From contig NZ_CP014517.1 in NCBI RefSeq assembly GCF_001577265.1, positions 859,001 through 923,000 of the forward strand: a stretch of DNA of 64,000 nt, written 5' to 3'. Below, in pieces: positions 3,438-8,261 of this stretch (the first letter of the stretch is position 1; each line of letters opens with the position of its first letter). The notes beneath the pieces are model-generated. The model worked only from the letters and a program-made list of their open reading frames with translations, had not been told where the DNA came from and did not search any database. Source of the stretch: Variovorax sp. PAMC 28711. Lineage in GTDB: Bacteria > Pseudomonadota > Gammaproteobacteria > Burkholderiales > Burkholderiaceae_C. Position numbers and translations under genes: made by a program.

Positions 3438-4184
3438 TCAGACGCCGCCATAGCGCTCGGTGCGGATGCGCGCCGCACCGATGCCGACATCGAGCAGGCC
3501 GTTCGCCACCGCCTCCACGAAGCCATTGGCGCCGCACACGAAGACGTGTCGCGGGGTCCGGCCCCAGCGGTCGAGCAGGCCCCGCAGCGACGCGGCGTCG
3601 AGTCGGCGGCCAAGGTCGGTCGGACGTGGCGGCGCCCCCCGCGTCGTGACGGCGACGAAACGAAAGCCTGGCCCGCGCGCTTCCGCGGCAACGAATTCGT
3701 CGTAGCCGCACAGTTCCTCTGCGCTGCGCGCCGAATGCACCAAGAGAATGTCAGCGCCGGTGGTCGCAGCGGCAAGGCCCGCCCGCACCATCGCCATCAG
3801 CGGCGCGATGCCGGAGCCGCCGGCCACCAGCAGCAGCGGCCCACCGTCCTCGGGCCGCCACACGAAGTGGCCACCGAGCGGGCCGCGCACCTCCAGCGTG
3901 TCGCCGGTTCGCGCGATGTCGTGAAAGAACGGCGAGACCTCGCCGTCGTCGAGCCGCTCGATCAGCAGTTCAACCTCGCCCGCACCGGGCGCCGAAGCGA
4001 CCGAGTAGCTGCGCTGCGCCACATAGCCGTCTTCGGCGGTCAGCCTCACGTCGACGTGCTGGCCAGCGCGGTGCGACGCGAGCGAGGTTTTCAGGAAGAA
4101 GCTCTTGAGGCGCGGCGTGCGCGGCACGATGCGCGTGAGGGTCGCTTCGTGCCACGGCCCGTCATGTGGCGCCGGGCTGCTCAC
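3438..4184 (-). CDS. FAD/NAD(P)-binding ferredoxin reductase-type oxidoreductase
   Basis: A 248-residue flavin reductase of the ferredoxin-NADP reductase fold without an attached 2Fe-2S domain. The FAD-binding RSYSVAS motif, the nucleotide-binding GGSGIAPLMAM loop and the terminal CGANGF motif are present. The GTG at 4184-4182 is the preferred start because it overlaps the stop of the upstream molybdopterin gene (GTGA) and gives a family-like N-terminus; longer frames run into that gene. The tight coupling indicates that it delivers electrons to, or takes them from, the molybdopterin protein. It could also serve the Rieske oxygenase just upstream, which has no reductase of its own here. Confidence 0.85.
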   Translation of the reverse strand: MSSPAPHDGPWHEATLTRIVPRTPRLKSFFLKTSLASHRAGQHVDVRLTAEDGYVAQRSYSVASAPGAGEVELLIERLDDGEVSPFFHDIARTGDTLEVRGPLGGHFVWRPEDGGPLLLVAGGSGIAPLMAMVRAGLAAATTGADILLVHSARSAEELCGYDEFVAAEARGPGFRFVAVTTRGAPPRPTDLGRRLDAASLRGLLDRWGRTPRHVFVCGANGFVEAVANGLLDVGIGAARIRTERYGGV

Positions 4185-4792
4185 GGATCGTCCGAATAGC
4201 GTTGCTGCCGCCACGGATCGCCGTACATGTGATAGCCGCGCAACTCCCAGAACCCGGCCTCGTCGCGCGCGGTGAACTTGAGGCCCTTGAGCCACTTTGC
4301 GCTCTTCCAGAAATACAGGTGCGGCACCAGCAGGCGCGCCGGCCCACCGTGTTCGGTGGTGAGCGGCTCGCCGCCGAAATGCGTCGCGACCATTGCACGA
4401 CCGCCGATCAGGTCGGCCACCGGCACGTTGGTGTCGTAGTCGTCGAACGAGAGCGCCAGCAGAAAGTCAGAGGGCGGTGCGATACCGGCGGCGGCGAACA
4501 AGTCGTCGACGCTCACGCCTTCCCAGCGGGTGTCGAACTTCGACCAGGTGGTCACGCAGTGGATGTCGCCCTTCCATTCGGTGCGCGGCAGCGCTTCGAA
4601 TTCGACCCAGGTCCAGCTGGCGAGCGGCTTCGCGCCGTGGCTCAGGGTGAAGCGCCAGCTGTCGAGGTCGATGCGGGGTGTCGGGCCTTTGGAGAGCACC
4701 GGAAAGTCATCGGTCTCGAACTGGCCCGGCGGAAGGCGCCGGGCGAAGGCGGCGGTCAGACGCCTGCCGTTGAAACCACGCGTCGTGACCAT
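4181..4792 (-). CDS. sulfite oxidase-like molybdopterin-dependent oxidoreductase (YuiH type)
   Basis: A 203-residue protein consisting only of the oxidoreductase molybdopterin-binding domain of the sulfite oxidase family. The molybdenum-ligating cysteine is Cys79 in GDIHCVTTWSK, and the GGPARLLVPHLYFWKSAKW segment of the cofactor pocket is intact. No signal peptide is evident, unlike periplasmic MsrP, so the enzyme is probably cytoplasmic. It overlaps the flavin reductase gene downstream, suggesting a two-component molybdenum reductase or oxidase. The physiological substrate is unknown for this subgroup; sulfite or methionine sulfoxide chemistry is only an analogy. Confidence 0.85.
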   Translation of the reverse strand: MVTTRGFNGRRLTAAFARRLPPGQFETDDFPVLSKGPTPRIDLDSWRFTLSHGAKPLASWTWVEFEALPRTEWKGDIHCVTTWSKFDTRWEGVSVDDLFAAAGIAPPSDFLLALSFDDYDTNVPVADLIGGRAMVATHFGGEPLTTEHGGPARLLVPHLYFWKSAKWLKGLKFTARDEAGFWELRGYHMYGDPWRQQRYSDDP

Positions 4793-4825: not shown

Positions 4826-5902
4826 TTAAGCAGCTTGCGCGAGCGGGATCACCTTCATCCCGCGATGAATCTCCGCCTCGCCATGCCGCGCGAGCAACTG
4901 CATCAGGTGTTTGCGAATCAGCATGCCGGGCTTGTCGGATTCCATCGAGTACTCGACGCCGCGGCGGCGCGTGTCGACCAGCGCATCGGGATCGGTGGAT
5001 TCGAGGATGTCCTTGTCTTCGCGCGTGATCTCGTCGTCGAAGTCGATCAGCATCTGCGCCGCGCAATCGGCCTCGGTGTCGTTGCGGAACAGCCATTGGC
5101 ACAGCTGCATGCGCCCGTCGTCGATCGGCGTGAAGCAGTTGATGATGATGTGGCGAATGCCCGACGGGTACTCGATGTCGAGCCGCCGCGAGAACGGCAG
5201 GAAATACGCGTTGCGCATGTGGCGCGTGGTGATCGGGTCTTTCACGCCGCTGATCGCGTGGAATTTTTCGGGGTTGGCCGCGTCGATCACCGTCTCTGCG
5301 TAGAAGCCGCCGTCGTTCTCGACCAGGTTGTACTGGCTCGGCTTGGGGCTGGCCGCCACGCCGAAGGTCGCGCGGTGCACGAAGCTGAAGTGCGAGTTGT
5401 CGAAGGAGTTCTCGAGCGCACGCATCGGGCTCGTGTTCCAGCTTTCGTAGAACTGGAAGATCGTGCGGTAGGCCGGATCGTCGAACTCGGGGAACGCGGG
5501 AATGTCGGCGATCGGGTCTTCGAGCGCGACCCACGCGTAGCCGTAGCGCGCGCTGCAGTGGTAGGCCGGAGTCTTGTACTCGGGCGAGATCTTGCGGTCG
5601 GGCTCGTACTGCGGAATGCGGATGACCTGGCCGCTGCGGTCGTAGGTCCAGCCGTGGTAGCCGCACTGGATGGCGCCGCTGCCGCAGGGCTTGCCCTCGG
5701 TGTCGACGCACCAGCCCTTGGACAGCTTCGCGGTGCGGTGGCAGCAGCGATCGCGCAGCGCAGCAGGCTGGCCATCGGCATCCATGAAAAGAACGATGTC
5801 TTCGCCGAGCAGCCTGAAAGGTTTGGGGCCGTTGGCCAGTTCGGTGAGCGGCATGACGGCATGCCAGAACTTGCGGAAGACGGGTTGTTGGGTGACGAGC
5901 AT
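4826..5902 (-). CDS. Rieske [2Fe-2S] non-haem iron oxygenase, alpha subunit, under a putative xanthine riboswitch
   Basis: A 358-residue oxygenase. The Rieske centre has Cys53/His55 (DRCCH) and Cys80/His83 (CGYHGW). The mononuclear iron site is in NSFDNSHFSFVH with Asp168, His171 and His176; the third ligand is probably an Asp in the ITREDKDILESTD segment. Architecture (FWHAV start, LRDRCxHRxAKLS) resembles VanA-type O-demethylases and the methylxanthine N-demethylases NdmA/NdmB. A clear ribosome-binding site (AAGGAG) precedes the ATG at 5902, and a putative xanthine riboswitch ends about 40 bases upstream. I infer a purine-related substrate from this regulation; a plant-aromatic substrate remains possible. 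The electron-donor reductase is not certain. Confidence 0.88.
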   Translation of the reverse strand: MLVTQQPVFRKFWHAVMPLTELANGPKPFRLLGEDIVLFMDADGQPAALRDRCCHRTAKLSKGWCVDTEGKPCGSGAIQCGYHGWTYDRSGQVIRIPQYEPDRKISPEYKTPAYHCSARYGYAWVALEDPIADIPAFPEFDDPAYRTIFQFYESWNTSPMRALENSFDNSHFSFVHRATFGVAASPKPSQYNLVENDGGFYAETVIDAANPEKFHAISGVKDPITTRHMRNAYFLPFSRRLDIEYPSGIRHIIINCFTPIDDGRMQLCQWLFRNDTEADCAAQMLIDFDDEITREDKDILESTDPDALVDTRRRGVEYSMESDKPGMLIRKHLMQLLARHGEAEIHRGMKVIPLAQAA

Positions 5903-5939
5903 GCGTGGAACTCCTTGGGGTTGCGTGTGGGGACGAACT

Positions 5940-6004
5940 CAAAGAGCAATTTCCGACCACGGCCTGTTCGATGGACAGGTGCCGGGCTGAACGCTTCTAC
6001 TCTG
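5940..6004 (-). promoter_or_regulatory. xanthine riboswitch (NMT1 motif), copy 1, upstream of the Rieske oxygenase gene
   Basis: Read on the minus strand, the leader contains the conserved bulge strand GUAGAAGCGUUCAGC and its partner CGGAAAUUGCUC. They are enclosed by a short outer stem (AGAG with CUCU) and capped by an inner hairpin (CCUGU/ACAGG around 5959-5976). This matches my recollection of the xanthine-I/NMT1-motif aptamer consensus; the inner stem sequence differs from copy 2 while the bulge is kept, as expected for an RNA. The aptamer ends about 40 bases before the oxygenase ATG, with the AAGGAG ribosome-binding site between, so translational control is plausible. No terminator-like U-run follows. 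Confidence 0.85.
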
Positions 6005-6083
6005 GGCAAGTTGCGATGCAAATTGCGGGCCCGATTGTCCCGCGGAACGCGGGGTTCGTGTGCCGTGGCGGTATGCTCTGAAA

Positions 6084-6563
6084 ATGATAGCAACTGCCCG
6101 CATGCTCACCCTCGTCGGCATCTGCCTGCTGGCCGTGGCGTGCAGCACGCCGCGCGCACCTTCTTCCCGAACTTTTTCTTACCCGACGCTCACGCCCGAG
6201 CAGTCGAGCGACATTGCCATCCACGCGCTCGGCCTCGTCGGTACGCCCTACCGTTACGGCGGCAACACGCCGGACAGCGGCTTCGACTGCAGCGGCCTCA
6301 TCGGCTACGTCTACCGCAGCCGCGCGGGCATCGCACCCCCACGCACTGTGGCGCAACTCGACGGTTTCGGCCAGCCGGTGAGCACGAGCGAGCTGCGCAC
6401 CGGCGACCTCGTCCTCTTCGGCGGCGGTCGGCCCTTTCATGCCGGCATTTACGTGGGCGAAGGCCGCTTCGTGCATGCGCCTTCCACCGGCGGCGAAGTG
6501 CGCCTCGACCGTCTCGCCAGCGTGTACTGGTCGAAGCAAGCGGTCGCGGTACGCCGGCCCTGA
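6084..6563 (+). CDS. NlpC/P60 (C40) peptidoglycan endopeptidase lipoprotein
   Basis: A 159-residue cell-wall hydrolase that cleaves within peptidoglycan stem peptides. The chosen ATG at 6084 gives a lipoprotein signal with lipobox LAVAC (lipidated Cys20); the frame is open from 6060 but that adds an unlikely N-terminus. The catalytic Cys69 in GFDCSGL and His119 in FHAGIYVG are present, and His131 is the likely third polar residue. It should be anchored in the outer or inner membrane facing the periplasm. It sits between two inverted riboswitch copies without being controlled by either: copy 1 faces away and copy 2 lies downstream. Confidence 0.9.
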   Translation: MIATARMLTLVGICLLAVACSTPRAPSSRTFSYPTLTPEQSSDIAIHALGLVGTPYRYGGNTPDSGFDCSGLIGYVYRSRAGIAPPRTVAQLDGFGQPVSTSELRTGDLVLFGGGRPFHAGIYVGEGRFVHAPSTGGEVRLDRLASVYWSKQAVAVRRP

Positions 6564-6578
6564 AGGTCGTGGCTGGCA

Positions 6579-6601
6579 TGCGTCGTGCATGACACGACGC
6601 A
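6579..6601 (+). other. perfect 9-bp hairpin between nlpC-type gene and riboswitch copy 2
   Basis: TGCGTCGTG and CACGACGCA form a perfect stem around a 5-base loop (CATGA). It lies 15 bases after the NlpC/P60 stop and ends one base inside the predicted outer stem of the xanthine riboswitch, so the two helices compete for C6600/A6601. There is no following T-run, so a classic intrinsic terminator is not supported. It could be a 3'-end processing hairpin for the lipoprotein mRNA or a protein-binding palindrome. Confidence 0.45.
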
Positions 6602-6662
6602 AGAGTAGAAGCGTTCAGCTGCGCACGCACCACCGACGTGCGCCGCCCGGAAATTGCTCTTG
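6600..6662 (+). promoter_or_regulatory. xanthine riboswitch (NMT1 motif), copy 2, upstream of the NMT1-type binding protein gene
   Basis: Outer stem CAAGAG (6600-6605) with CUCUUG (6657-6662), conserved asymmetric bulge GUAGAAGCGUUCAGC and GCCCGGAAAUUG, and inner stem GCGCACG/CGUGCGC (6621-6643). Compared with copy 1, 18 bp and 14 bp blocks are identical while the 28-30 base middle is unrelated in sequence but again forms a hairpin. The motif class is named for its association with NMT1-domain transporter genes, exactly the gene that follows. The next start codon (6733) is about 70 bases downstream, with a purine-rich stretch (AAGGGGAAA) in between; control of translation is the simplest model. 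Confidence 0.88.
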
Positions 6663-6732
6663 AAGCGCCTCCTGCCCCGTCCCGTCGGATGGCAAGGGGA
6701 AATTCAAGACCACAAGATTCGTGACCCACGCC

Positions 6733-7761
6733 ATGCAACGCCGTTCCTTCCTCATTGCCAGCACCGCCACAGCCGGCGCCCTCGCCTTCCCGACCGTGTT
6801 CGCCCAGAGCGGCAAGCTCACGCCACTCAAGTTCACGCTCGACTTCCGCATCAACGGCCAGACCTCGCCGTTCTTCCTCGCGCAAGCCAAGGGCTACTAC
6901 AAGGACGAAGGTCTCGACGTGACGCTGGACACCGGCGCCGGCTCGGTCGCGTCCATCACCCGCATCGCGAGCGGCGTCTACCAGATGGGCCTGGGCGACA
7001 TCAGCTCGCTGGTCGAGTTCAATGCGCAAAACCCCGGCACGCCGGTGGTGCAGGCGGTGTACCAGTACTACAACCGCGCACCGTTCGTGATCATCGGCCG
7101 CAAGGACCGCGGCGTGACCGGCGACTTCAAGAGCCTGCAGGGCAAGAAGGTCGCAGCGGCCGCGGTCGAATCGACGCGCCGCGCCTGGCCGATGGTGGCG
7201 CGCAAGCAAGGCATGAAACCCGACGCCTTCGCCTGGCAAACCACCGACTTCAGCGCGCGCGACAACGTCATGGTGCGCGGCGACGTCGATGCCGCCACCT
7301 ACTTTCACGACTCCGCCATCTCGCTCTTCGCGCGCATGAAGCCCGAGGAGTTGTCGGTGCTGAAGTACGCGGATGCGGGCGTCAATCTCTACGGCAACGC
7401 GGTCCTCGCGAGCAGTAATCTCATCGCGCAGAGCCCGAAGGTGGTCGCGGCTTTCCTGCGGGCGACCAACCGCGCGATCGTCGAGACTTTCGCGCACCCC
7501 GGCCCGTCGATCGCGGCGATGCGCCAGCGCGAACCGATCCTCGACGAGAAGATCGAGCTCGACCGCTGGGCCATCACCGCGCAGTACGTCGGCGCGGCCG
7601 ACACGCGCGCGCACGGCCTCGGCGACATCAAGAAGTTCACGCTCGAGCAGCAGGTCGACGAAGTGGCCGAGGTGTTCGGGCTCAAGACCAAACCCTCGGC
7701 CGATGCGCTGTTCAACACCTCGATGCTGCCGCCGCGCAGCGAACGCATGATCAAGGCATGA
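6733..7761 (+). CDS. ABC transporter substrate-binding protein, NMT1/SsuA-like
   Basis: Periplasmic binding protein of 342 residues. The N-terminus MQRRSFLIAS has a Tat-like RR pair and a hydrophobic core, with probable cleavage after VFAQ near residue 24. The SSL/NMT1 fold begins with LKFTLDFRINGQTSPFFLAQAKGYY, typical of proteins that bind pyrimidine precursors, nitrate, sulfonates or purines. A GTG at 6721 is an alternative start. The gene follows a putative xanthine riboswitch, and its stop overlaps the next deaminase ATG, so xanthine, urate or a related purine is the likely ligand. Its permease may be the partial gene at the window start or lie elsewhere. Confidence 0.87.
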   Translation: MQRRSFLIASTATAGALAFPTVFAQSGKLTPLKFTLDFRINGQTSPFFLAQAKGYYKDEGLDVTLDTGAGSVASITRIASGVYQMGLGDISSLVEFNAQNPGTPVVQAVYQYYNRAPFVIIGRKDRGVTGDFKSLQGKKVAAAAVESTRRAWPMVARKQGMKPDAFAWQTTDFSARDNVMVRGDVDAATYFHDSAISLFARMKPEELSVLKYADAGVNLYGNAVLASSNLIAQSPKVVAAFLRATNRAIVETFAHPGPSIAAMRQREPILDEKIELDRWAITAQYVGAADTRAHGLGDIKKFTLEQQVDEVAEVFGLKTKPSADALFNTSMLPPRSERMIKA

Positions 7762-8261
7762 ACCTCCCTGAAGAAACCGAACTCGACGAACGCGACGGGC
7801 GCTACCTGCGCAAGGCCATCGGCTGGTCGCACGCGGCACGTCGCCGCGGCAACCGACCCTTCGGCTCCATCATCGTGTCGGCCGACAACGAAGTGCTGAC
7901 TGAAGCCTGGAACAGCACCGCCGAAACGGCCGACTGCACCGGCCACGCCGAGATGAACGCGATCCGGGCACTGGCCGAGCGCAAGCTCACGCGGGAGCAG
8001 CTCGCCGGCGCGACGATCTATGCATCGGGCGAGCCGTGCGTGATGTGCGCGGGCGCGATCTTCTGGTCGGCCATCGGCCGCGTGGTGTTCGGCATCGATG
8101 CCGAAAGACTGCGCGTCTACCGCGGCGAGCGCGGCGACCAGCGCGACGCCGAACTCTCGTGCCGCGACGTGTTCCGCGCCTCGCCGCATGCGATCGAATG
8201 CATCGGGCCTGCGCTGCTCGACGAAGCGAGTGCTGCGCACGACGGGGCTTGGAAAACCTGA
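7758..8261 (+). CDS. nucleoside/guanine deaminase family protein, second copy
   Basis: A 167-residue cytidine-deaminase-fold enzyme. Zinc ligands are His63 (with catalytic Glu65, GHAEMNA) and Cys94/Cys97 (GEPCVMCAG). It differs substantially from the 533-1015 copy, so it is not a recent duplication. The ATG overlaps the binding-protein stop by four bases, placing it in the riboswitch-controlled transcript. Conversion of guanine to xanthine, the riboswitch ligand, would make physiological sense, but other aminopurines or cytosine derivatives cannot be excluded. Confidence 0.85.
   Translation: MNLPEETELDERDGRYLRKAIGWSHAARRRGNRPFGSIIVSADNEVLTEAWNSTAETADCTGHAEMNAIRALAERKLTREQLAGATIYASGEPCVMCAGAIFWSAIGRVVFGIDAERLRVYRGERGDQRDAELSCRDVFRASPHAIECIGPALLDEASAAHDGAWKT

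Follow-up and report, generated by a model that had tools for sequence, protein, structure and literature searches.

The window, by which we mean the whole 64-kb stretch of DNA that was analysed, comes from a soil bacterium and contains two transcription units that diverge from one another, each headed by an aptamer of the xanthine riboswitch class (Table 1). On the reverse strand the aptamer is followed after 36 nt by the start of a gene for a Rieske oxygenase, with genes for a molybdopterin-binding oxidoreductase and an FAD/NAD-binding reductase behind it. On the forward strand 68 nt separate the aptamer from the start of a gene for an NMT1/THI5-like substrate-binding protein, which is followed by a gene for a deaminase. 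The Rieske and NMT1 genes both have a putative role with purines. The Rieske gene on one side, and the NMT1 and deaminase genes on the other, are the targets that the first-pass annotation, made from the letters of the DNA, had assigned to the two elements, and both assignments were right.

Table 1. Features of the divergent locus, with positions in the window.
Feature	Position	Strand	Remarks
FAD/NAD-binding reductase	3438..4295	(-)	ORF overlaps preceding gene; real start probably further in
Molybdopterin-binding oxidoreductase	4181..4792	(-)	33 bases past the Rieske gene
Rieske oxygenase	4826..5902	(-)	Rieske PF00355 and VanA_C domains; nearest solved structures NdmA/NdmB
Shine-Dalgarno region CAAGGAGU of the Rieske gene	5910..5917	(-)	8 contiguous pairs with 5940-5947
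P1 3' strand GCUCUUUG of the Rieske aptamer	5940..5947	(-)	anti-Shine-Dalgarno in the predicted ligand-free fold
Xanthine riboswitch aptamer, Rieske unit	5939..6007	(-)	RF03054, 54.0 bits, E 3.2e-9
Sigma54-type -24/-12 promoter GGGCCCG-CAAT-TTGCA	6017..6032	(-)	10 nt before the Rieske aptamer; expected +1 near 6006; same distance in 52/53 genus Rieske leaders
nlpC/P60 gene (PF00877)	6060..6563	(+)	between both promoter modules; bystander
Sigma54-type -24/-12 promoter TGGCATG-CGTC-GTGCA	6574..6589	(+)	9 nt before the NMT1 aptamer; expected +1 near 6600; 8 or 9 nt in 48/48 genus NMT1 leaders
Xanthine riboswitch aptamer, NMT1/deaminase unit	6598..6664	(+)	RF03054, 54.8 bits, E 1.9e-9
P1 3' strand UCUUGAA of the NMT1 aptamer	6658..6664	(+)	
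Anti-P1 strand UUCAAGA of the NMT1 leader	6703..6709	(+)	7 pairs with 6658-6664
NMT1/THI5-like substrate-binding protein	6721..7761	(+)	start probably ATG at 6733
Cytidine-deaminase-fold deaminase (TadA/guanine-deaminase superfamily)	7758..8261	(+)	

The two aptamers share, in opposite orientations, an 18-base block AGAGTAGAAGCGTTCAGC and a 14-base block CGGAAATTGCTCTT. Such inverted blocks had been picked out from the sequence at 5942-6003 and 6602-6661, which is correct to within a few bases, and with the E-values of Table 1 they are far above chance. The middles of the aptamers are unlike each other and, as had also been read, each forms a hairpin, in both cases P2b. When both strands of the 64 kb were searched against 4227 Rfam families, the test that the annotation itself had proposed for its xanthine (NMT1-motif) riboswitches, both copies scored well above the RF03054 gathering cut-off of 36 bits, and across the whole 4.3-Mb genome to which the window belongs there are no further RF03054 matches. 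The residues reported to shape the pocket and the tertiary structure (U5, A6, G7, A8, A9, G10, C11, U13, A16, G35, A38, A39, U40, U41 and G42 in the numbering of PMC8266621) are, on comparison by eye, intact in both aptamers, which read UAGAAGCGUUCA and CGGAAAUUGCUC.

To place the locus among its relatives we used a sample of 61 genomes of the genus, 57 of which carry the riboswitch and 47 of which have a divergent riboswitch pair less than 2 kb apart. The pair counts use 111 riboswitch places; loci were fetched for 110 of these, which two regular expressions for gene starts sorted into 53 Rieske, 48 NMT1 and 9 unlabelled. Of the 47 pairs, 43 have a recognisable Rieske start on one side and 42 have both Rieske and NMT1, so the proposed tie of the Rieske gene to the NMT1 and deaminase genes through paired riboswitches is a conserved one. 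The gap within the pair is 55-203 bp in 44 cases and 590-621 bp in three. The riboswitches do flank nlpC in the window, as first noted, but the gene is incidental to the arrangement, being found inside just 3 of the 47 pairs, the wide-gap ones (G000, G049 and G052). It therefore seems to have been inserted or captured at a later time, without damage to either control module. A relative of nlpC that lies near the riboswitch pair yet outside it (relative G035, locus L087, 6348) hints at local gene movement.

The inverted 18- and 14-base repeats on both sides of nlpC might also be taken as those of a mobile element or an invertible segment around this gene. However, the narrow spacing in 44 of the 47 genus pairs is too short to hold nlpC, the middles are unlike and both copies fit the covariance model of a riboswitch; on the RF03054 matches and the spacing we ruled this explanation out as extremely improbable. 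Judged by the covariance model and the pocket residues, both elements are genuine xanthine riboswitches, and the purine locus to which they belong is conserved and transcribed in two diverging directions.

In a wider sample of the family the riboswitch was present in 56 of 299 genomes and 39 of 141 genera, and a search for the aptamer pattern gave at least 119 stretches at at least 80 loci. One match (L228, 4405-4453) is on a contig labelled Flexivirga, outside the Proteobacteria, and may be due to chance or contamination. In relative G041 (L057, 8142-8256) tandem xanthine riboswitches precede a Rieske gene, with the spacer duplicated, and face a third copy, a natural two-aptamer arrangement.

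Among solved structures the Rieske protein matches NdmA (E 1.7e-33), SxtT (1.2e-31), SxtDIOX (3.9e-31) and NdmB (9.6e-30). NdmA and NdmB are methylxanthine N-demethylases, and so Rieske oxygenases that act on purines, though the similarity is distant and SxtT and SxtDIOX score between them. A homologue search gave 2461 matches at E <= 1e-20, and the best 120 of the 2461 carry generic names only. The kinship to NdmA and NdmB and the control by a xanthine riboswitch both point to a purine as the probable substrate. For the deaminase guanine and tRNA adenosine were considered as candidate substrates, and the best solved matches are a mixture of CMP/dCMP-type, TadA, guanosine and guanine deaminases that favours neither. 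A relative of the molybdopterin-binding protein is near the riboswitch in just 8 of the 60 loci examined, the window included. About 5 kb upstream (9-1015, and L032 7725-11015) are a second NMT1-like protein, an ABC ATPase, a permease and a second deaminase, which are near the pair in many relatives too. Xanthine dehydrogenase was over the cut-off in 57 of the 61 genus genomes, including that of the window (G000:C1:818992-821277). As the canonical enzyme is present, the Rieske gene cannot be its sole replacement, and the idea that the oxygenase stands in for a missing xanthine dehydrogenase was ruled out.

The NMT1 motif was reportedly described in a paper of 2017. As the xanthine riboswitch class (RF03054) it was presented by Yu and Breaker in 2020, with targets that include NMT1, Rieske-type and other dioxygenases and tadA (PMC7373994). 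The same paper notes opposed adjacent riboswitch copies in Hydrogenophaga intermedia S1, gives OFF as the reporter polarity of the class and likens the riboswitch-linked oxygenases to the purine-oxidising hpxD/hpxE of Klebsiella, a likeness taken here from that published description. The main claim of the first-pass annotation is thus right but not new, since the class, its Rieske, NMT1 and tadA-like targets and the opposed pair were already in print (PMC7373994). The window is the same as the published class in aptamer sequence and structure, in target genes, in having no terminators and in its opposed adjacent copies. The H. intermedia S1 locus (L175; names from translations and PMC7373994) resembles it further, with one riboswitch reading into a Rieske gene and the other into NMT1, deaminase, NMT1 and a pcbC-like gene, and with a sigma54-type block before both copies. 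Unlike the window, it has no nlpC between the copies, and the sequence of its NMT1-side aptamer and leader differs. Where the window departs from the published case, which is an OFF switch in an NMT1-side leader (PMC7373994), is in its Rieske leader, with a direct helix between the 3' strand of P1 and the Shine-Dalgarno region that predicts ON.

The DNA between the facing aptamers contains two conserved blocks, one adjoining each aptamer, and both fit a sigma54 -24/-12 promoter. Against TGGCAC-N5-TTGCW (the consensus is given as TGGCAC-N5-7-TTGCT in PMC12316311) each block of the window has the GG of the -24 and the GC of the -12 element at the exact spacing and matches at 6 of the 8 further positions. 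For the counts we required this GG and GC at the exact spacing, at least 5 of the 8 other matches and an aptamer 7-12 nt downstream. The pattern was present before 48 of the 48 distinct NMT1 leaders of the genus, 52 of the 53 Rieske leaders and 1 of the 4 2OG leaders. In other genera, taking one leader per genus, it was found for 34/39 NMT1, 16/21 Rieske and 24/27 2OG leaders with labels merged (36/41, 16/21 and 26/29 with labels unmerged). After mononucleotide shuffling, 0.9-2.5% of the upstream sequences had a match of this score somewhere within 66 nt. Upstream of the TPP riboswitches of the genus there was no match in 30, even in 200 nt, and upstream of its glycine riboswitches none in 30 in 50 nt and 4 in 30 in 200 nt, with 0 at 7-12 nt. 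Given so large an effect, a distance that does not vary and the result for the TPP riboswitches, chance is a very unlikely explanation. The position of the motif puts the expected first base of each transcript 2-3 nt ahead of P1.

The conserved block might instead be the binding site of some other protein or a part of the leader that has gone unrecognised. The start sites are predicted ones and the pattern was picked after the sequences had been inspected; moreover, in 29 further named loci, mostly from more distant bacteria, 18 of 34 matches failed the strict pattern, every Marinobacter, Halopseudomonas, Marinomonas and Vibrio match among the misses. The other 16, however, fit at the same distance, the letters and the spacing match the sigma54 consensus (PMC12316311), the pattern persists in many genera where other letters change, and the +1 would fall at the edge of the aptamer. 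We consider a block of another kind improbable and take a sigma54-type promoter as the preferred reading. The genome of the window has rpoN and ntrC genes, and no sigma70 promoters were found at 5900-6760. NtrC-like dyads matching at 10 or more of 12 positions are near 57% of the 47 pairs compared with 9% of 622 1-kb windows, which is above background yet unconvincing as an enhancer, as many of the best ones are 450-500 bases away within the downstream genes. In 40 of 43 NMT1-side aptamers of the genus, the type at 6598-6664 in the window, the P2b stem-loop has the form GCAC-N7-GTGC, which we take to be the shape of an NtrC site; it was seen in 2 of 40 from other genera, 0 of 80 Rieske and 0 of 46 2OG aptamers. 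The literature searched, with most subscription papers outside its scope, made no mention of a link between sigma54 and the xanthine riboswitch, and the main text of PMC7373994 has 'RpoN' 0 times and 'sigma' once, as Sigma-Aldrich.

In the Rieske leader the 3' strand of P1 is complementary to the Shine-Dalgarno region of the gene. In most of the 53 Rieske leaders of the genus the complement spans 8 bases, being GCTCTTTC:GAAGGAGT in 46 and GCTCTTTG:CAAGGAGT in 2, the window leader having the latter form, and the other 5 have 6 to 9 pairs. Across genera the pairing is kept by compensating changes, examples being GCTCTTGAAA:TTTCAGGAGC, GCTCTTGATA:TATCAGGAGC, GCTCTTTC:GAAGGAGT and GCTCTTTG:CAAGGAGT. 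The wider leader set comprised 284 places entered, 259 of them in one of three gene classes, and 237 after start assignment and deduplication; gene starts in other genera come from a script, certainly with some errors. For covariation we took one leader per genus, dropping leaders of 15 nt or less and NMT1 proteins with less than 55% identity to the window protein. The P1 3' strands of the Rieske leaders scored 15.68 with their own start region and 13.19 with those of other genera (n=22, z 4.5; 0/2000 permutations), and the result held without near-identical leaders (n=17, z 3.9; 0/2000 permutations). No mention of such covariation, or of an ON-type Rieske leader, was found in the literature searched.

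Folding of the genus leaders, of which 52 Rieske and 48 NMT1 were left once identical sequences had been removed, gave a mean probability of the Rieske Shine-Dalgarno being unpaired of 0.02 in the free RNA and 0.43 with the aptamer forced, and the value went up in 50 of 52 leaders. For comparison, strong Shine-Dalgarno sites of other genes had an unpaired probability of 0.28 (n=75). Shuffling only the nine bases at the P1 3' strand brought the free value to 0.32, and shuffling only the spacer to 0.23. When aptamers and leaders were exchanged in 54 loci, the Rieske combination went from 0.10 to 0.38 (45 up, 3 down), a Rieske aptamer with an NMT1 leader from 0.42 to 0.40 (5 up, 11 down) and an NMT1 aptamer with a Rieske leader from 0.31 to 0.40 (23 up, 5 down), so that strong opening of the Shine-Dalgarno requires both Rieske parts. 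The Rieske leaders of other genera had a free-fold value of 0.30 (n=27), which against 0.28 for ordinary genes is no extra closure, and their Shine-Dalgarno was mainly paired with the P1 3' strand in just 5 of 17. The bound fold of the Rieske leaders also comes at a computed cost, the free fold being favoured by about 9.5 kcal/mol; as this exceeds what a micromolar ligand would repay at equilibrium, kinetic control must be assumed. In 9 of 22 Rieske leaders of other genera (L132, L142 and L146, for example) the Shine-Dalgarno is followed directly by CGCUUC, complementary to GAAGCG of the aptamer core; this was seen in 0 of 29 NMT1 and 0 of 30 2OG leaders (genus labels unmerged).

The NMT1 leaders of the genus are built in another way, in that an anti-P1 strand (mostly UUCAAGA) upstream of the Shine-Dalgarno pairs with the P1 3' strand instead of the Shine-Dalgarno itself. 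In the bound fold 32 of 54 NMT1 leaders went up and 9 down. Between P1 3' strand and start region the NMT1 leaders (n=27) gave covariation z-scores of 2.5 for the contiguous helix and 4.3 for duplex energy. NMT1 leaders thus share both the rise and the covariation with the Rieske ones, yet the single NMT1 leader assayed in print is an OFF switch, which weighs against reading ON from these features. For 2OG genes (n=28) covariation in the whole leader (z 4.2) exceeded that in the start region (z 1.7). At 6710-6733 the NMT1 leader of the window is without the GAGG- or GGAG-type Shine-Dalgarno common in its relatives, TTCGTGACC replacing TTCCGAGGC. No terminator-like sites were found at 5900-6760, which makes control of translation likely.

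From these parts a mechanism can be proposed. The sigma54-type promoters imply that an enhancer-binding protein and RNA polymerase with sigma54 would both be required for transcription, for which nitrogen limitation is a plausible setting. Xanthine (or urate) would then bind the nascent leader and control its translation. In ligand-free Rieske RNA the Shine-Dalgarno would be hidden in the helix with the P1 3' strand, and ligand binding would form P1, free the Shine-Dalgarno and turn the oxygenase ON; a leader in which ligand binding draws the masking strand away into P1 has the build of an ON switch. On the NMT1 side, where the partner of the P1 3' strand is the anti-P1 strand ahead of the start, the leader could act as an OFF switch, as published for the homologous H. 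intermedia leader. Leaving polarity aside, the core of this proposal, namely real riboswitches, sigma54 promoters and control of translation, seems to us very probable. That the Rieske oxygenase is switched ON by xanthine is a tentative prediction from the build of its leader, a little less likely than not. It is possible, if rather doubtful, that the two form a pair of opposite sign, each driven by sigma54, in which under nitrogen limitation xanthine would turn the Rieske gene ON, for an oxygenase that uses up a purine, and the uptake and deamination genes OFF.

Both copies could equally be ordinary OFF switches, through which xanthine or urate would repress both units and so halt more purine import and oxidation, and we regard this as a serious possibility though short of probable. 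On this view the helix of the Rieske P1 3' strand with the Shine-Dalgarno would form only in passing as the RNA folds, or else the aptamer with its ligand would keep the ribosome away by steric hindrance; the shortest Rieske leaders do have their Shine-Dalgarno only a few nt past P1. In the same gene arrangement a binding-dead mutant leader was expressed above the wild type (PMC7373994). That polarity, however, was read from a single NMT1-side leader and a single point mutant, expressed from the E. coli thiC promoter, and the Rieske-side leader was not the one used (PMC7373994), so the published OFF and an ON prediction for the Rieske side need not conflict. The covariation of the Rieske helix also argues against OFF on both sides, as it predicts release on binding. 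Our folding of the published H. intermedia NMT1 leader did not reproduce OFF, and the power of folding to predict polarity is to that extent unproven.

As Yu and Breaker describe it, no known member of the class is on genes that use up oxidised purines, and they left the purpose of the class open (PMC7373994). A sigma54 start beside most aptamers of these beta-proteobacteria would suggest a testable purpose, namely that the cell draws nitrogen from purines, with nitrogen status as the gate and xanthine as the fine control. For the oxygenase, an ON leader would speak for consumption of xanthine or urate by the enzyme, and an OFF leader for their production. If the ON-type Rieske leader is true, the class would work in both directions, and xanthine or a close relative would be indicated as the substrate of the oxygenase. 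If the opposite-sign sigma54 picture is true, it would provide the first xanthine ON switch together with a riboswitch class that is generally wired to sigma54.
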